From the NCBI GenBank assembly GCA_025786725.1, contig JAHLTZ010000013.1, positions 558,001 to 622,000 of the forward strand: a DNA stretch of 64,000 nucleotides, given 5' to 3'. Source of the DNA: Syncephalis fuscata (taxonomy: Eukaryota; Zoopagomycota; Zoopagomycetes; Zoopagales; Piptocephalidaceae). Numbering within the stretch: the stretch's first letter is position 1; every line of letters starts with the position of its first letter. The position numbers and the translations under genes were made by a program. Shown here in pieces: positions 20,295-61,874 of this stretch. The notes beneath the pieces were generated by a model. It did no database searches. It had not been told where the DNA came from and saw only the letters and a list, made by a program, of their open reading frames with translations.

Positions 20295-20780
20295 TTAGCA
20301 TTTTGGAAAATGCTTTAGCAATTTATCGTTACTACCAAAGTATTGTGTCCAGTATGTTGTGCCTTCATTGCTTACAGCCATGCCACTGCCGAAATGCGTG
20401 GCATTGCTTACTAAGCTTTGAAAGTGAGTGGGTGATTGAATCCAGTCGTCCATAACTTCCTCCATAGATGTCTGTCCGCCTGCGGTATTTTCTCTTACAC
20501 TATCCCATTCGCCACCGCCGATGGAGTAGCGCTCCATTAAGTCAGGCTCACCAGCAAAAGAATAGCCCATCCTGTTATTACGGGCTTGAAATGCACTGTG
20601 GTCCTGTGCAGCTTTGTTTAGACCGTCATGAATTGCGAATGGAGGAAGCTTTCGTTCACCGCGGAATCTGTTGACCAGACAAATCATACTTGTTTGATCA
20701 AAACTAACTGAACCTGCGCTTACTTCGATCGCACTGGCGGCGACTGCGGTAATCATAATGAGAGTAGTGAGGAATTGCAT
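20295..20780 (-). CDS. Secreted CAP/SCP (PR-1-like) protein
   Basis: Intronless, 161 aa. The signal peptide MQFLTTLIMITAVAASAIEV is followed by a CAP domain: CLVNRFRGERKLPPF (helix 1 with LVNxxR), LNKAAQDHSAFQARNNRMGY (with the conserved His), RENTAGG (conserved Glu), DDWIQSPTHFQSLVS, ATHFGSGMA and TYWTQYFG. Only two cysteines remain (in SMICLVN and the C-terminal FPKC), against four to six in many PR-1 proteins. CAP proteins act outside the cell, often binding sterols or acting at host interfaces. It stands alone in a repeat-bounded island next to secreted peptide genes, which hints at an accessory or effector-type role (inference). Confidence 0.9.
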   Translation of the reverse strand: MQFLTTLIMITAVAASAIEVSAGSVSFDQTSMICLVNRFRGERKLPPFAIHDGLNKAAQDHSAFQARNNRMGYSFAGEPDLMERYSIGGGEWDSVRENTAGGQTSMEEVMDDWIQSPTHFQSLVSNATHFGSGMAVSNEGTTYWTQYFGSNDKLLKHFPKC

Positions 20781-22020
20781 GGTGGTAGTGTTCGTAAGTT
20801 TAAAAGTCGCGCGTAACTATTCGTGTGTTTAGTTGATTAAGCAGACTAGCTGCAATCAATGGCATAAAGGCACTGGCGTAAAAGTCGTTGCAAAAGCTGT
20901 AGCTTTGTTGAGGTACTGAATAAACCATTGACCAGATAAGCCACTGTGTATTTATATTCAATATTATATTAACAACTGCTAAGATGTGCTTCATGATTAC
21001 AGCCATGACCAAGAGTGTTCTTATTTTTTAGGTCTTAAATGGTATAATGAACAACATCTTCGGCCACGTTATGCTAAAACATAACAGTCCTCGATGGCTC
21101 TTACTTTAATGTTTCAAATAATCAACCAGCTATATCATTTTTATCAAAATCGTACTTTTACACATTATATTGCCATAATTTACCAACCGTGTTTGTGTAT
21201 TGCAGCTTTATTCTTTATTCTTGAGATTAGTGATTTTTTGCCAACAAATATATCACCACACCAATTAATATGCTAGACTGTAAAGCTAGTTTTACTAGCT
21301 ATAGAACACTGCATGTTTCATAATATTGCGCAATACAAGCTTGCACTCTCTTATTGTATCAAATTTTTTATCCAACCTCCGCAATACTAGTTTGAAATTG
21401 CATGTCTTGCCATATTTACTAGTTATAATCCATTAATTTCATTACACAAGTGATAAGGCCAAATTCCATGAAACTATCCCGGTTATGTTTAACGCAGTAC
21501 TACCATAGTTAGCTGCTATTGATTTATAGGCAATTACCCCTATTATGAATATATTGGCTCAAGGCGTTGTAGCAGACTAATAAAACTGGTAGTGTTACAA
21601 ATACAAATACTTCACGTGCAATGTAAACAATACTGCTATGGATTACAATAAATCCAGTCGCTACATTATAAAAGTTTTACATATCGTATTAAAAACGTGT
21701 TAATGTTTTAACATATGTTTACAATTCAACTTTCGATAAACCATGTTGCGTAGTCTGTCATATCATAAACATAATCATGTTTATACACGATTAGTAAAAT
21801 ATATGGTTTTATCGACAGTTGCACCAAAAAATAAATAAAATTCAACTATAAACAAAAACATTAACAGCACATTCAATTGTAGATATCCGATTTCAGATAA
21901 TAACTATGGCCATCATAAAGATGTGGCATTCTCTGTTTCTAATAATCATCGCCGTATTAAAAAAAGATTTCAACGTAATTAGGTGGTAAAATGCAAGGAA
22001 ATTAAAGCAATAAAGCCAAT
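20781..22020. other. AT-rich spacer upstream of the CAP gene
   Basis: No supported gene. Short ORFs at 20,800-21,012 (-) and 21,094-21,276 (+) have no family features. Confidence 0.4.
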
Positions 22021-23215: not shown

Positions 23216-24606
23216 TTTTGCTATCGTTTTTTGCCACTTAATTACACTAAACGCATTCTTTCAATACATTGCTTACTTTTATGGTATTGGCGCAATAATT
23301 CTACACTTTAATTTGTAAAATAACGCTCTATTGCCAGTTCAAGGTATTATACATAAAATAAGATATTTTACTGTAATCACGACTATCAGAAATAATAACA
23401 TTACATTTATATAATGGTCCTATATATTTAAAACAACAAATAGTTTAATCTACAATGTTTATAAATGTTGTGTATAAATGGTAAGATTTTCCGCATTATC
23501 TACTCAACACAATTATTCATTCTATTCTATATCATTTATTTTGTAGTAGTCATGTACTATTTATAATTATTGCCCGTTTTTCTCCAGTTTGATTATCAAT
23601 AAACTTTGACTATTTTTGTTTATTGGACCATATATGCAGATAAAACAAACAATATGAGTATGCATAAACTTATTGCTTAATTATAATTGTGTATTTGGTT
23701 AATCATTTATAACTATTGATTGCTAAGCTAGTTAACATCAAATAGGCCGATATAGAACTGTAGAAAGCTATAGAATAAAGAAATACAAATATCCATATTA
23801 TAGTATTATGAAAATATAATGGTATGGCGATATCTATAATAAATGTATTTATATTGAATGGTTAGAATAATAAATTTGATGACTAATATAATGCACAATC
23901 CATCTCCATCTTCAATAGAACCAATGTCTAGCTCAATTACGTGAATGTTATTACATTTATTCGTTTAAATCCCAAATTACATTAAATTATTAATAAACGG
24001 TTTTTAAATTAAATATAATAATAATTCCAATATCCACATTTACTATTCAATCATCAATGTTGATACATCACCTTTGCCATACACTTGCCTTAGCTCTACT
24101 GTGCTACTGCCAACTATATAGCAACCGTTTTAAGCAATGTATAATAATACACTTTATCAAAATACAATAACAGTCTACTGACATATATATACCACTCATA
24201 TAAATATTGAATTTATTATACACATTATTAAAATAAAACCAACTTGCCATTTTAAAATTTACATCTAGCATAGCCAATTTGTTGATATGCATAGACAAAG
24301 ATAGCTGTTGGATTAGAATTGGCAAATTTGTGCATAGAACCAGCATCTAAATGCCATCACTATGATATCTTGTTACAGACAGGACAGGATTTGCCGGTAC
24401 AAACAAGCTCAACATTAATAATTGTATAAAATGATATGTAGATTGGTGTAAAATAAACAAATTATGATAGTAGTTAAGCAATTATGCAGCCACATCACTA
24501 AAATGCATGCACACGCAGTAAAAACGTACAAAAGACACACCAGCGTGCCTTTAATATATACTGATGTCTATATACCAAAGCAGATCGCGGCAAAACAAAA
24601 AACAAT
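23216..24606. other. AT-rich spacer
   Basis: A fragment near 23,860-23,930 faintly resembles the dispersed-repeat tail. Nothing else is recognised. Confidence 0.35.
24592..24602 (-). terminator. Pol III terminator of tRNA-Thr
   Basis: On the minus strand a run of six T, G, then four T lies just after the tRNA 3' end, as expected for RNA polymerase III termination. Confidence 0.7.
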
Positions 24607-24678
24607 GCCTTCTGGCGGAATCGAACCGCCGACCTTCTGCTTACTAGGCAGACGCTCTGCCAACTGAGCCAAGAAGGC
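24607..24678 (-). tRNA. tRNA-Thr (anticodon AGU)
   Basis: 72 nt without intron. The acceptor stem is a perfect 7-bp match (GCCTTCT with AGAAGGC). The D-arm is GCTC-AGTTGGCA-GAGC. The anticodon stem TCTGC/GCAGA holds loop CTAGTAA, whose middle reads AGT. The T-arm GGCGG-TTCGATT-CCGCC is perfect. A T-rich terminator (TTTTTTGTTTT on the minus strand) follows at about 24,592-24,602. Confidence 0.96.
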
Positions 24679-31757: not shown

Positions 31758-33743
31758 ATGTCTGCCGCTAGTCCTGCTGCCGAAAACCCATCCGCTAGTC
31801 CTGTCGTCCAGGCAGAGACAGCTCCAGCCACTGGTAATGGTGCGGCTGCTGCCACCGCTACCAATGCCAACAACGCCGATCAGCAAGGCCATACTACGGC
31901 TTCGTTGTACGTTGGTGAACTAGATCCAAGTGTCACTGAGACTATGCTTTTTGAACTGTTCAACTTTGTTGGTCCAGTGGCCAGCATTCGCGTTTGCCGT
32001 GATGCTGTTACTCGTCGCAGTCTTGGCTATGCTTATGTTAATTACCACAACCCAGATGATTGCGAGCGTGCACTTGACTCACTTAATTACACTCAAATCC
32101 GCAGCAAGCCATGCCGCATTATGTGGTCGCAGCGCGATCCATCGCTGCGTAAAACTGGTGCTGGTAACATTTTCATCAAGAATTTGGACCCAAGCATTGA
32201 TAACAAAATGCTGCATGATACATTCTCGGCCTTTGGTCGTATTCTATCCTGTAAGGTAGCTATGGACAATGGCTCATCGCGTGGCTATGGCTTTGTCCAC
32301 TACGAACTACCGGAAAGTGCCGAAAAAGCCATTAAAGCCGTTGACGGTATGCTTCTTAATGACCGCAAGGTATTTGTTGGCCACCATGTTTCACGCAAGG
32401 AACGTCAGTCGAAGATCGAAGAAGCCCGCTCCAAATTCACCAATGTATATGTGAAGAATCTAGATTTGTCGGTAACAAACGAGCAATTCGACGAGATGTT
32501 CTCTAAATTCGGTCCAGTTACATCGGCCGTTATTGCTACTGATCCAGAGACTGGTGCCAGCAAAGGCTTTGGCTTTGTTAATTTTGAAAATCATGATGAT
32601 GCACACAATGCCGTTGAAGCTATGCACGATAAGGAGATTGGCGACAAACGTCTTTATGTATCGCGTGCCCAAAAGAAGGCTGAACGCGAAGAAGAACTAC
32701 GTCGTCAGTTTGAAATGGCCAAGATTGAGAAGTTGAACAAATACCAAGGCGTGAATCTATACGTAAAGAACCTTGAGGACACTGTTGACGACGAGCAATT
32801 GCGTCAAGAGTTTACTGACTACGGCGTTATCACTAGCGCTAAGGTGATGCGCGACGAAAAGGGCGTATCTAAAGGATTTGGCTTTGTATGCTTCTCTTCT
32901 CCCGATGAGGCTACCAAGGCTGTTACCGAGATGAATGGCCATATGATTGGTATTAAGCCAATCTATGTAGCACTTGCTCAGCGTAAAGAAGTCCGCCGCA
33001 GCCAGCTTGAAGCCCAAATGGCACAGCGCAATCATATGCGCATGCAACAAGCTGCAGCACAAGGTATGCCAGGTGCTATGTACCCAGGCGCACCAGTCTA
33101 TTATCCAGCTGGTCCTGGCTTCCCTGCTGGCCGTGGTGGTATGGTATACCCACAAGGCGGTATGGTGCCACGCCCACGCTGGGCCACTGGTGGGCAACAG
33201 CCAGGTGCACCAATTACCGGCCAATATCCAGGTGTGCCACAGGGTGGCTATCCAGGCAGCCCAATGGGCCGTGGCGGTCGTCCAATGCGTGGCCGCGGTG
33301 GCGTACCCGTCCAACAGGGTCGTCCTAATGCTTCAGGTGCACCAGCTTCAGGTAATCAGCGTCCTAATGGTCCAGGTGTTACTCGTGGTGGCGCTGCGTA
33401 CAAAGGCAATGCTGGCGCACGTCCAGCTCCAGCTGCCGGCTCACCAGCCACTTCTACCGCTGCTGCACCAGCTGCCGCTGCACCAGCCAGCTCATCTAAC
33501 TTGACAGCTGCCGCTCTGGCCGCTGCTCCACCTGCTGAGCAGAAGCAAATGCTTGGTGAAGCTTTGTTCCCATTGATTGCTGAGCACCAACCAGATTTGG
33601 CTGGTAAGATTACCGGTATGTTGCTAGAGATGGACAACGGTGAACTACTCCATCTACTCGAAAGCACCGAAGCACGTACCAGCAAGATTGATGAAGCTAT
33701 TGCTGTCCTTCAGCAACATACCACTGCCGATAAATCCGCCTAA
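31758..33743 (+). CDS. PAB1: Poly(A)-binding protein, cytoplasmic
   Basis: Intronless, 661 aa. An Ala-rich N-terminus (~48 aa) precedes four RRMs starting near residues 49 (ASLYVGELDPS), 137 (GNIFIKNLDPS), 230 (TNVYVKNLDLS) and 333 (VNLYVKNLEDT), each with its RNP1 (such as KGFGFVNFE). A Pro/Gly/Gln-rich linker contains RGG-like MGRGGRPMRGRGG. The C-terminal MLLE domain (~585-655, KITGMLLEMDNGELLHLLES) binds PAM2 partners such as eRF3. It coats poly(A) tails and links them to eIF4G. The 3' flank has a (TG)n run and GTAGTAGTAACAACAAC. Confidence 0.97.
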   Translation: MSAASPAAENPSASPVVQAETAPATGNGAAAATATNANNADQQGHTTASLYVGELDPSVTETMLFELFNFVGPVASIRVCRDAVTRRSLGYAYVNYHNPDDCERALDSLNYTQIRSKPCRIMWSQRDPSLRKTGAGNIFIKNLDPSIDNKMLHDTFSAFGRILSCKVAMDNGSSRGYGFVHYELPESAEKAIKAVDGMLLNDRKVFVGHHVSRKERQSKIEEARSKFTNVYVKNLDLSVTNEQFDEMFSKFGPVTSAVIATDPETGASKGFGFVNFENHDDAHNAVEAMHDKEIGDKRLYVSRAQKKAEREEELRRQFEMAKIEKLNKYQGVNLYVKNLEDTVDDEQLRQEFTDYGVITSAKVMRDEKGVSKGFGFVCFSSPDEATKAVTEMNGHMIGIKPIYVALAQRKEVRRSQLEAQMAQRNHMRMQQAAAQGMPGAMYPGAPVYYPAGPGFPAGRGGMVYPQGGMVPRPRWATGGQQPGAPITGQYPGVPQGGYPGSPMGRGGRPMRGRGGVPVQQGRPNASGAPASGNQRPNGPGVTRGGAAYKGNAGARPAPAAGSPATSTAAAPAAAAPASSSNLTAAALAAAPPAEQKQMLGEALFPLIAEHQPDLAGKITGMLLEMDNGELLHLLESTEARTSKIDEAIAVLQQHTTADKSA

Positions 33744-56715: not shown

Positions 56716-57260
56716 AATGTTCATTTCTATAACGTTCTTTCCTTTCTCTTCTACTTACTATAACTTACTTCTTAGCGTTATATTTTTATATCGAATAAGA
56801 AGAATAAATACACAGTTATAACATAATGAGCTATCCATTTTTATTTAATATTTTAACATTGTAATAATTGAGTAATTAAAATATGGATATTTAAATAATG
56901 TTCATTGTATCGCTTTACTAAAATGGTGAAGATGAGCACAATACACAAATAATGGCAATGGTTTGATAGAAAGCTAGAGTAATGTAATCATATTGCTTTT
57001 TGCTTGGACATCGACAATGAAACCATGTTTATTACTAAAGCTTGCATAGCTGAATAGGTGCAACTAAATTCAGACTTGCTGGTAATATAATGACGCCATT
57101 GATTAAAAGACGAATAAATCGGGACATTGGCTAGAACTTGGTATACAAATAAGCTGATTGGCAAGTGCCAACTGATCTTGCTCTTGCCGAATATATACCT
57201 AAATTATATCGGACTAGTAGCCTAGCCATATTACTAATGCTAGCTTCTTGAATGTACCGG

Positions 57261-60200
57261 TTATTCTATGTCTATAAAAATATAACACATGCTATAGAGT
57301 TAATGTATAAACTAGCAATACACAATGCCACTTACTAGCTATTAGTGTTAAGTCGTTGGTATACACGGTAAATATCAGTTAATTAGTACATAATTAGCTA
57401 AGACACAGAATCACTTACGACCTATCAATATTGATTTGTCAATACATATAATGAGCACACAGTTAATGCATGGCTGCTTGCAACAAAATGTCACTTACAG
57501 CCTATTAGCATTGAGTTTTCGATACAAAAAATAACCATGCAGTTAGCGCATAGCCAATTGATATACGGTGCCACTTACGATCTATTAAGGTTGAGTCATT
57601 TATAAACACAGTATAAATTATTTAATCAGTGGATAGTTAGCTACCATAAAATCCACGTACTCTCTATTAATGTTAGATTATTGGTAAGGACAATTTATAG
57701 TATAGAATTAGGATATGGTCAATTAATATACAACATCACTTACGATCTATTAATGTTAAATCATTGGCAGACACAATGCATAGTATGTAATTAGCGCATA
57801 ATCACTTAGTGTAAAACACTACTTACTGCCTATTAATATTAAGTTGTTGATACACACAGTGGCCAATATATAATCAGTGTATAGCTAATTGATATACAAT
57901 GCCACTTACAGCCTATTAAGTTGTCAATGAATACATTAAAGATTATTTAATTAGTATATAATCAATCAATAAACAGTATCACTTACGAGCTATCAATATT
58001 AATTTGTTGATACACACAATTCATAGCATGGAATTAGTGCATAGTTACTTAATATATAATGTTACATACCGACTATTGGTGTCAATTCGTTGACATACAC
58101 AGTATATGATAAGCAGTCGATATATAGTCAATTAATAAACAGTATCACTTACTGCCTATTAATATTAATTTTTAATACACATAATGATTACATAATTAAT
58201 TTATGGCTGAGTGCCATAAAATACCGCTTACAGTCTATTAGCATTGAATTGTCAATACACGCAATAAACATTCAATTAGTGCATAGTCAATTGATATAAA
58301 ATATTACTTACCATCTATTAATATTAAATTGTTGACAAACAGTAAATGGTGTGCAATTAATGTATAGCCAATTATTATATAATACCACTTACCAACTATT
58401 GATATTAAATTATTGATAGACACAATACATAGTATGTAATTAGTGCATAATCCCGTAATATACAATACCACTTACTGTCTATTAATATTAAGTTTTTGGT
58501 ATACACGGTAGACAGTCTATAATCAGCGTATAAATAATTGACATACAATATCACTTACAGCCTATTGAGTTGTCAGTAAATACAGTATAGATTATTTAAT
58601 TAGTAGTTAGCTAATTGCCATAAAATATCACTTACTCTCTATTAGTGTTAATTTGTTGATACGCACAATCCACAACATATAATTAGCGCATAGCCAATTA
58701 ATGCACGGTGCCACTTACTCTCTATCAATGTTTTAACATTGATAAACACAATACATAACATGTGATCAGTGAAAAGTTATTAATATACAACACTACTTAC
58801 TGTCTATTAATATTATTTGATTGATAAACGTAATGCATAGCATTTAATCAGTGTATATCTAATTGACGCAATATCACTTACCTTCTATTACGTTATTAAT
58901 ACATGAAATAATCATGTAATTAGTACAAGCCAATTGATATACAATACCACTTACCCGCTATTGATATTAAGTTGTTAGCAGAAATAATACATAGTATGTA
59001 ATTGGTTCATAGTCAATAATATAAAATACTACTTACGCTCTATTATTTATAATATATTAATACATAATTAATAATATAAATGCTACTTACTGCCTATTAT
59101 TATTAATTTGTTGGTATACACAATAAACAGTATTAATCAGTGCATATCCAATTAATATACGATGCCACTTACAAACTATTAATATTGCATTGTTGATACA
59201 AATAGCCAATAGTATATAATTAGCGCATATTCAATTAGTATATGATGCCACTTACAAACTATCAATATCAAATTGTTGATGCAAATAGCACATAGTATAT
59301 AATTAGTGTAAAATTACTTATTACATGATTACTTACCGCCTGTTAATATTAAGTTGTTAATACACACAGTAAGCATATAATTAGTGCATAGCCAATTACC
59401 ATACAGTACTACCTACAGTCTATTAAGTTGCCAATAACATATTATAGATTATGTGATTAGTAGATAGCTTATCAATGCACGGCGCCACTTACATTCTTTT
59501 AAGACCAGGTTTTGACCCACATGAAAGATATCATTTAATTAATACGCAGCCAATTAATATACAGTACCACTTACTCTCTATTAGTATTAGATTGTGGACG
59601 CATACAATAATAATATAATTAGTAAATACTCAATTGCTATACAATACCGCTTACCATCTATAGCATTAGGTTGTTAATACGTACAATATTCAATAAATGA
59701 TTAGTGCATAGCTGGTACATATAAAATATCACTTACAGTCTATTGTCAATAAACATATTATAGGTTGTGTAATTAGTAGATAACCGATTAATCCACGGTG
59801 CCACTTACAAGCTATAAGCATTAAATTGTTGACCCACACAATAGATATCATTTAATTAATACCCAGTCGATTGATATACAGTACCACTTACCAGCTATTG
59901 ATATTCAATCATCGATACACACAATGCATAGAATGTAATTAGTGCATAACCATCTAATATACAATACCACTTACTGCCTATTGATATTGATTCGTTGATA
60001 AATACAGTGGACAGTATATAATTAGTGTATAACTAACTGACATACAATACCACCTACATTCTATTAATTTATTGATAAACACCACAAATGTCACGTAATT
60101 AGTGTATAATCACTAAATATATCATGCCACCTACTTTCTATTAACATTAAATTGTTGATACACGCAGCGCATATCATGTAGTTAGCTTATATTTAATTAA

Positions 60201-60621
60201 TATACAATAGCACTTACCTTCTATTGATTTTAATTTGGCAAATAAAATATATTTAATTAAATTGCTAACTGGCCCGTAATACTACTTGCCTTTTATTAAT
60301 GTTAGTTTGACATAGTAGTATTACAAATACAGTGTTTAATCTACTGTTTATAACAAACTTACCATCTGTTTACATTTTTCATTGTGTTTATTATGTGTAT
60401 GGAGTTGTATAATAAGTAATGTAGCAACAATCCCATGATCACAACTTACTTGCTAATATCACCATTGGTGGTTAAATATAACAACAGTAAGCATATCAAT
60501 TTGCACATTATTGTAATTACAACATACCACGACGGGCTAGAGCCGGTCTAGCTTCCACAATGGCTGTACTGGCTACAAAAGCTATAGTGAGGGTGCAGGC
60601 GACTATAATAAAAAGCTTCAT
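57261..60621 (-). CDS. Micro-exon gene: secreted six-cysteine peptide from 39 consecutive 3-nt exons
   Basis: Exon 1 (60621-60528, 94 nt) encodes a signal peptide (MKLFIIVACTLTIAFVAS) and ends ..LARR plus one base. Then come 39 exons of exactly 3 nt; their low coordinates are 60450, 60363, 60218, 60135, 60058, 59975, 59892, 59809, 59737, 59655, 59575, 59493, 59417, 59337, 59256, 59173, 59091, 59037, 58955, 58882, 58801, 58719, 58636, 58559, 58476, 58393, 58312, 58232, 58153, 58070, 57987, 57910, 57827, 57744, 57661, 57589, 57499, 57419 and 57336. The last exon is 57271-57261 with TAA. Each micro-exon lies between AG (mostly TAATAG) and GT (mostly GTAAGTGG). All are phase 1. The splice is open for 73 codons with Cys at 37, 45, 48, 60, 64 and 69 (C-x7-C-x2-C-x11-C-x3-C-x4-C). 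Arg30-Arg31 is a Kex2-type site, so the mature peptide would come wholly from micro-exons. No family recognised. Splicing is inferred from sequence. Confidence 0.82.
57272..60527 (-). repeat. Tandem array of ~83-bp paralogous introns separating single-codon exons
   Basis: Period is mostly 72-90 bp, commonly 83. Each unit on the minus strand begins GTAAGTGGTATTGTATAT, passes through a CACTAATTACATA-like middle and ends TTAATATTAATAG. Units are degenerate, but the two splice ends are far better kept than the interior. The interval between the 59,037 and 59,091 exons is one short 51-nt intron. Similar introns recur about 650 bp apart (blocks near 57,860, 58,510 and 60,010), suggesting duplication of several units at once. 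Confidence 0.85.
60290..60292 (-). other. Degenerate micro-exon unit in the array
   Basis: The expected position (midway in a 145-bp gap) has AAG, but the acceptor reads TTAATAA instead of TTAATAG and the donor is GCAAGT. A GC donor is tolerated elsewhere (frataxin intron 3), but the lost AG should cause skipping. Either way the frame is kept. Confidence 0.55.
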
Positions 60622-61874
60622 GGTGATATTGATTTGTTAAACAAAGTAAAAAAGTAGAGGATCAAAGTATAGAGTAGAGTGCAGTGAATGCTTGGTAGAA
60701 AGTAGGGTGTAATGAAGATATTGCTGCTATGTGTGTAATTTGCGGCTATTTAAGCTTATAATTGCACTGAGATATAAAACATGTATTGTATGGATTATAC
60801 CATCGGTGTAATATAAACCAATAGCAATACATTTATATAGTGATCTAAATCGTACATATACCAGTATGTTCATAGTGTGACATTGTGCTGCCTGGCCCTT
60901 TGCTTCAATCTGCTTAGTGTTTAGTCATGTGAAGTGGCAATGATGATGGTTCAGTACATATAATACAGGGGTACATATACCAACCTGTGCTTTGTTGCCC
61001 AATTTGGACATTTAGTTAAAAAACTTGTTCGTTTTATAAAAATAGTAATGACGACTTTGCTGTCACTTTCATTGACAGAAATGCGTAAACTAGTCTTAAC
61101 TCCTTGAGTTATAAAATAAACTGGTTGGTGCATGTGTGTATTCAATCTAACAGTATGAAGATTTTTACAAAAATAAGCAGTGCATTAAATTTGCAAAAGC
61201 ATAGTATCAAAATATCATTGTATACTGCACTATTGTCAATGTCTCAAGTAGCGCATTGTCAAAATCGTTCAAAAACCAGTTGCATAATAGGCACTGTTTG
61301 TAATATACTACAGCACATAGTTTACTAGTAGATATTTTATTCAATTACTAATGTTATTGACTATTCAACCGTCCGGCTATCTCAATTGCTTAAATAACAC
61401 TTACTAAAATGTGGAAATACTAAGCTACAATTGTAGGGCTGCCATAGTTAGATACAGTTAGTTTTGCTATAGTTAGTTTTGCACAGTATATAAACACAGT
61501 TTGCTTGATGTTTTAGTTTCAAATTGCATATTTAAATAATATTATCGAACTCAATATAAATTATTATTAAATTCGACTCTTTTATTATGTTTATATAATA
61601 TAAACATGCTAATACACTAGCACCATATGATTCTAGAATTAAAATAGTAATAAGGCTTTATTATTGATAAAGTGTTCGGAGTAAGAGAATGCCAGATCAG
61701 ATCATGACCGTGATGAGTGATCAATTAAGGATCGAGTAGTTCAAATCAGATTCACTCTATCCAAGTAAGTTTTTCTTTTTGCAGTAATTCCGTAGAAGCG
61801 ACACCAGTTCTCTTTATCGTGCCTGATTTCTACTCGCGTTGATCTACTCTTTAAACGAAAAGCACCATAGCAAT
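60622..61874. other. Spacer between micro-exon gene and TIM8
   Basis: It contains a weak ORF at 61,155-61,328 (+, MKIFTKISSALNLQKHSIKI start) with three Cys and a stop; there is no copy or splice support, so it is not called. The rest is AT-rich. Confidence 0.4.
60746..60761 (-). promoter_or_regulatory. Candidate TATA region of micro-exon gene
   Basis: On the minus strand TTATAAGCTTAAATAG lies about 125 bp before the ATG at 60621. No other core element is obvious. Confidence 0.35.

Follow-up and report, generated by a model that had tools for sequence, protein, structure and literature searches.

Predicted runs of successive three-nucleotide exons in a family of candidate secreted-peptide genes of the fungus Syncephalis fuscata

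The window analysed in this work is a stretch of 64,000 nucleotides of Syncephalis fuscata DNA (assembly GCA_025786725.1, contig JAHLTZ010000013.1, positions 558,001 to 622,000 of the forward strand). This fungus belongs to the Zoopagales, and Syncephalis is treated as a mycoparasite grown together with its host in a study of a related species (PMC6784888). The window carries a poly(A)-binding protein gene (31758-33743), closest to BDF19DRAFT_343190 of the same species, and, on the minus strand, a tRNA gene (24606-24678; Rfam RF00005, 71.3 bits) and a stop-to-stop open frame of 173 residues with a signal-peptide-like start (20295-20816), presumably a secreted CAP/PR-1 protein. The feature under study lies on the same strand, between positions 60621 and 57261.

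Read on the minus strand, the predicted gene begins with a 94-nt exon 1 (60528-60621), which encodes a signal peptide ending in ARR, a dibasic site, and leaves one codon base over. It is followed by a 75-nt intron 1 (60453-60527; GTATGT...ATTAG), an array of 39 three-nucleotide exons and 38 introns with a modal length of 80 nt (57336-60452), a last intron of 64 nt (57272-57335) with the terminal sequence TTTTTATAG, and the coding part of the last exon (57261-57271), which runs to the stop TAA, giving 41 predicted exons in total. The array consists of 39 units in which AG, three nucleotides and GT follow one another, from 60452 down to 57336. Comparison by blastn with L042, a contiguous member of the same family, shows shared sequence on both sides: the upstream region (60622-60725, minus strand; about 104 bp) together with most of exon 1 is 75% identical to it, with array genes matching too, and a stretch after the stop (57026-57131, minus strand), which contiguous and array members have in common and which is probably 3' UTR, is 76% identical over 107 aligned columns.

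The words flanking the triplets are recurrent and variable, AATAG preceding 29 of the 39 and GTAAGT following 32; the unit search demanded AG, GT and, as the fifth base of the intron, G, and the constancy of these bases among the 39 units is therefore by construction. From exon 1 to the 39th unit the gaps measure 51-84 nt, except for one of 142 nt that contains a degenerate unit (60294-60284, minus strand), where AAAAG directly abuts GCAAGT; this unit would either be skipped or serve as a zero-length splice point. A chain model free to choose exon length recovered 36 of the 39 exons; it missed CAA (60452), ATG (60365) and a unit late in the array, and it set an exon of zero length where the degenerate unit lies. 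Information content is 0.27, 0.11 and 0.07 bits at the three exon positions, compared with values such as 1.42, 1.35 and 1.05 bits in flanking positions outside the search pattern, and 28 of 39 introns contain CTRAY between bases 21 and 60. The initial annotation had described a minus-strand gene with 39 three-nucleotide exons, and its coordinates, its exon 1 and its order of parts stand, the flanking words being more variable than it stated; its claim of an exon length of three without exception holds for the 39 units by sequence and for 36 of them in the length-free model, and passed over the degenerate unit. Joined, the exons read MKLFIIVACTLTIAFVASTAIVEARPALARR-ANEEKCTAYYEKYCVFCKPEDKKSYIDDCIARCNQNRCPNIE-stop, which bears out the open frame with six cysteines that had been read in the phase of exon 1 as far as the TAA.

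The predicted product is 73 residues long, and the 42 that follow the dibasic site include all six cysteines. When the triplets were shuffled 100,000 times, no stop appeared in 2.3% of the shuffles, at least six cysteines in 0.6%, and both in 0.08%. Skipping of the whole array would give the leader plus the three residues DIE, and the gene without any splicing the leader plus GML. A protein search with the 73-residue peptide returned no match at E<=1, and a Pfam scan of four cysteine-type family peptides (window, L066, L068 and L060) gave no match for any of them. Nor was the similarity of the window peptide to the contiguous peptides significant (223 of 1,000 shuffles were as good). Six-frame searches of the fungus's own genome with the mature peptides of the window gene and of another array gene, L018, found nothing, as would be expected if both were encoded only in arrays, though an empty result of this kind carries weight only alongside a positive control.

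Beyond what the initial annotation had noted, the window gene is one of many such genes, and the family also has contiguous members; the anatomy and its genome-wide repetition show that the original observation understates the case. In the 28.95-Mb genome, the pattern AATAG-3nt-GTAAGT has 3,183 matches and its reversal 28. At a spacing of 4 the same words give 54 matches (reversed control 50), and at a spacing of 6 they give 38 (control 19). A stricter pattern gives 503 matches at spacing 3 (control 0), 25 over spacings 4-30 (control 18) and 4 over spacings 0-2 together (control 0). Since the AATAG-3nt-GTAAGT pattern fits 393 of 616 modelled three-nucleotide exons, a fair extrapolation from its 3,183 matches is about 5,000 such exons genome-wide, duplicated stretches being counted twice.

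The chain model scores acceptors and donors and permits exons of 0-45 nt; given 27 loci, it returned 644 exons, of which 616 were exactly 3 nt long, 19 more were 6, 9 or 15 nt, and nine had other lengths. An earlier model with exons of up to 60 nt had given 469 of 476 at exactly 3 nt. First chain models, in which long exons were allowed or weak units were missed, were replaced by the later length-free model. The site matrices were trained on sites 3 nt apart and may favour such sites; the pattern counts are independent of this training. Under one gap rule (45-170 nt), the longest runs of three-nucleotide exons were 63 in L018 and 40 in L012, and the run in the window gene was 36. Searched genome-wide, exon 1 gave 40 scored matches among 61 first-look candidates, and the L042 peptide including its leader gave 150 among 319. 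Among 20 regions fetched for the array pattern, 18 have exon 1 upstream of the array on the same strand, including L017 with a changed donor; ahead of the arrays of L014 and L024 there are only decayed exon-1 remnants.

Several features of these loci are recorded here as observations. Pairs of array genes that mirror each other on opposite strands have identical triplet order (C1:475-478k with C1:531-534k; C1:575k with C1:610k; C2:520-522k with C2:537-540k), pointing to inverted segmental duplications. In L026 (C19:1500-11400, minus strand), a repeat of exons of 3, 3, 3 and 15 nt spells a peptide repeat of the TPISIW type, after which comes an Ala-Pro stretch. Array introns are broken shortly after the donor by a 400-bp (approximate length) repeat, with copies 83-91% alike, in L029, L038, L047, L050 and L024 (in the last from about 2415 and 3565), and an interruption in L013 looks alike by eye.

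The introns of the arrays resemble one another throughout the family. The commonest lengths among 564 array introns are 78 nt (143 introns) and 80 nt (137), and inside the introns conservation is highest at an A in aCTAA, which falls at +35 in 134 of the 143 and at +36 in 134 of the 137; this motif, some 44 nt ahead of the acceptor, lies where a branch point would be expected. Within a gene, array introns are 70% alike, and between genes of the family 66%. With L026 excluded, identity is 0.702 at lag 1 and 0.690 at lag 12, and no sign of recent tandem growth of the arrays was seen in intron identity along the array.

The contiguous members encode their peptides without arrays. L042 and L043 hold the leader and a small cysteine peptide within one open frame; among 20 further loci fetched for open frames, 17 were contiguous, two were array genes and one lacked exon 1 at the threshold used. 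One contiguous member, L064, is annotated as BDF19DRAFT_420983. The L042 peptide matched two S. fuscata proteins only in the protein search, one of them a partial array-gene model. Ten contiguous members (L060, L061, L063, L066, L068-L071, L075 and L077) have at least six cysteines at short spacings, in a layout that by eye resembles the peptide of the array gene L027 and the end of the window peptide.

Whether the order of the triplets carries coding information was assessed with chain models built without using the frame (28 models from 30 loci, near-identical duplicates having been removed beforehand), each chain being truncated at its first irregular exon ahead of the stop count. In the phase set by exon 1, these models contain 0 stops in 601 codons and 51 cysteines, and in the other phases 4 stops in 629 codons and 49 in 601. 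Shuffling exon order within genes 2,000 times gave a mean of 24.8 stops (minimum 12) and at most 40 cysteines. The uncut chains of L015, L016, L018 and L026 contain stops beyond the irregular exon. For L018, the 64 predicted residues have a mean hydrophobic moment of 0.494, compared with 0.205 (sd 0.047) after shuffling; 0 of 2,000 shuffles were as high, and 12 of 2,000 were free of stops. The predicted peptide of this array would be a strongly amphipathic helix.

Judged from sequence comparison, the strongest single piece of evidence for coding arrays is the match between the array gene L020 and the contiguous L064. Successive three-nucleotide exons of L020 spell CKCQDEDGNCTSC, L064 reads CKCRDDDGYCTSC, and 33 of 39 bases are identical over these 13 codons. 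Shuffling the exon order 5,000 times never yielded the alignment score of 69, the best being 47 (and 53 among 300 earlier shuffles), and the other phases scored 21 and 27. In a comparison of 25 array peptides against 18 contiguous ones, none but L020 and L027 scored above all of 300 shuffles; when 5,000 were made for L027, 17 reached its score. By eye, exons of 9 and 33 nt apparently precede the array of L020, consistent with its partial annotation P0121: this public model at the locus (C13:299645 on; BDF19DRAFT_464749) is a partial one of 51 residues and lacks the CKCQDEDGNCTSC part.

These results bear on the proposal that the arrays are ordinary satellite DNA within one long intron, splice-like words recurring merely with the unit. 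The units are indeed tandem and alike, as the resemblance of introns within a gene illustrates, but the unit is conserved except at the exon triplet (0.05, 0.18 and 0.00 bits, from 516 unique sites), the order of the triplets encodes an open frame and a peptide matching a contiguous paralogue, and removal of the entire array would leave a leader with three residues only. We find this proposal scarcely credible.

Duplicated genes offer a view of constraint. Ten of 12 pairs were pooled, L031/L036 and L054/L055 being dropped as repeats of a gene. Across the pooled pairs there are 17 differences among 1,951 positions of the donor and acceptor words, 360 among 13,544 of the intron interiors, 19 among 560 of the small exons and 6 among 943 of exon 1, the small-exon changes coming mostly from L039/L048, L047/L049 and L011/L012. 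Since differences are fewer in splice words and exon 1 than in intron interiors, the splice words and the leader look constrained, and the mature peptide appears to change about as fast as the introns. A conserved leader and a fast-changing mature part are common among secreted peptides that meet a host. The same comparison weighs on the idea that the arrays are relics of formerly working one-codon-exon genes, now mostly silent, the work being done by the contiguous paralogues. Damage of the kind this idea predicts does exist, in the decayed exon 1 of L014 and L024, the changed donor of L017, the 400-bp repeat that interrupts several arrays and the frame that is broken late in some models; the absence of stops from 601 codons and the lower divergence of splice words and exon 1 in recent duplicates speak against it, and we judge it very improbable. 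The order-dependent frame of the family, the L020 homology, the putative branch point and the apparently constrained splice words support the claim, already made in the initial annotation, of successive three-nucleotide coding exons.

In the reading that we consider very probable, the window gene is a member of a large S. fuscata family of genes for small secreted peptides, the mature peptide being assembled from dozens of three-nucleotide exons. Exon 1 would supply a signal peptide with a dibasic end, each intron would split the frame after the first codon base, the separating introns would be diverged copies of a single spliceosomal intron of about 78-80 nt, and the peptides would probably act on the host fungus. 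Against this reading stand the irregular exons in some chains, with stops beyond them at four loci, the lack of a Pfam match for the window peptide, and the outcome that L020 and L027 alone among the 25 array peptides stood out from their first shuffles, L027 less clearly in the longer series; nor do we know of any benefit of fragmentation at every codon. The arrays would be transcribed and spliced by intron definition, adjacent introns being removed in succession, because a three-nucleotide exon is too small for splice complexes on both sides simultaneously. Once an intron had been removed, the next donor would stand behind an exon of normal length and hence be usable. With exon bases free to vary, U1 would depend on the GTAAGT within the intron, in keeping with the strength of that word. 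For an exon of 1 nt, a published proposal is that its two flanking introns are removed in succession (PMC4674806).

Contiguous and array genes have about 100-150 bp upstream, exon 1 and post-stop sequence in common. Plain retroposition was rejected as the origin of the contiguous members on account of the 100-150 bp shared upstream of the start. Probably the array of an ancestral gene was replaced through recombination with the cDNA of its spliced mRNA, as this single event is simpler than dozens of insertions spaced by exactly 3 nt. The opposite direction, in which contiguous genes are older and gained introns, may apply instead. Two features of the predicted structures look like the loss of a single intron: exons of 6 nt and, in L011, L022 and L045, an exon 1 with exactly 3 nt more.

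A different use of the same architecture would be the generation of variants, the one-codon exons being real and introns of a single phase allowing any subset to be skipped in frame, so that one gene gives many peptides. Skipping any exon preserves the frame, and variant production is thus possible in principle: 635 of the 644 modelled exons are 3, 6, 9 or 15 nt long, and flatworm micro-exon genes are described as varying their proteins by single amino acids through exon skipping, in the passages covered here (PMC7653826). Random skipping would often spoil six-cysteine peptides, however, and the contiguous paralogues yield one fixed peptide; we consider variant generation unlikely. A broader proposal is that codon-by-codon splicing is the usual encoding of this class of secreted peptides (about 5,000 exons by extrapolation), that a common phase and similar splice sites let each gene retain or omit single residues in frame and so provide a combinatorial repertoire at the parasite-host interface, and that the contiguous paralogues are fixed mRNA-derived copies; this we regard as possible, if somewhat doubtful.

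Micro-exon genes (MEGs) of flatworms (Schistosoma, Echinococcus, Hymenolepis) provide the nearest comparison. In the parts of the sources consulted, they are alike in carrying a signal peptide in a conserved first part and series of small exons whose lengths are multiples of three, and in having fast-evolving secreted products and poor annotation (PMC10526429, PMC7653826). Their exons are reported there as 6-81 bp, mostly 15 bp (3-81 in the abstract), with introns of about 0.1-5 kb (PMC10526429), so that the statement that flatworm micro-exons are longer than 3 nt was broadly right. The S. fuscata exons, unlike these, are nearly all exactly 3 nt, with related introns of about 78 nt, in a fungus, and the likeness is one of architecture only. 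The structural definition excerpted from the Hymenolepis study asks for exons with transcript support, for at least seven exons, of which the window gene has 41 predicted, and for at least half of the exons to be shorter than 70 nt and divisible by three in a run of at least four, of which it has 39 by sequence and 36 by the length-free model; in structure, the predicted window gene would thus count as a micro-exon gene under this tapeworm definition (PMC7653826). No descent from flatworm genes emerged, the window peptide being without protein match at E<=1 and the L042 peptide matching only two S. fuscata proteins.

Aphid bicycle genes form a large family of secreted putative effectors whose many small internal exons nearly all begin at codon position 2 (PMC9168663); they average about 17 exons, and a megacycle gene related to them contains over 100 micro-exons. 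The 94-nt exon 1 of the window gene likewise places the starts of the following exons at codon position 2, again a likeness of architecture only; the bicycle genes are from an insect and their exons are longer than one codon. The window peptide shows no apparent bicycle motif. Isolated exons of 1 or 3 nt, such as those described for Arabidopsis APC11, Drosophila homothorax and Fusarium CYP621A, also come close to the minimum exon size or reach it, but are single and in otherwise ordinary genes, whereas the S. fuscata arrays have dozens in a row (PMC4674806, PMC7392893, PMC12940212). Introner-like elements and fungal stwintrons are likewise multiplied, recognisably related spliceosomal introns, described in the part of the review consulted as having entered the exons of various genes at apparently random sites (PMC8469720); in the S. 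fuscata loci read, conversely, the related introns are tandem in one gene family, in one phase and 3 nt apart. According to the excerpted text of one study, functional microexons were previously undescribed in filamentous fungi (PMC11121469). The statement that no gene of successive three-nucleotide exons was known agrees with our search of the open-access literature, which found none.

If spliced as read, these genes would hold the most finely fragmented coding sequence known to us, with about one intron per amino acid across runs of 30-60 residues in many genes. The arrays test the lower limit of exon size and, since neighbouring splice complexes cannot flank a three-nucleotide exon on both sides, the intron-definition model; as a natural system, they would allow study of what keeps splicing in order and of whether skipping that leaves the frame intact is exploited or prevented. 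A secretome of this kind can escape gene prediction, only two family proteins being catalogued among the search matches of a contiguous member. If the interpretation is true, the family would be a fungal counterpart of the micro-exon families of secreted proteins in flatworms and aphids.
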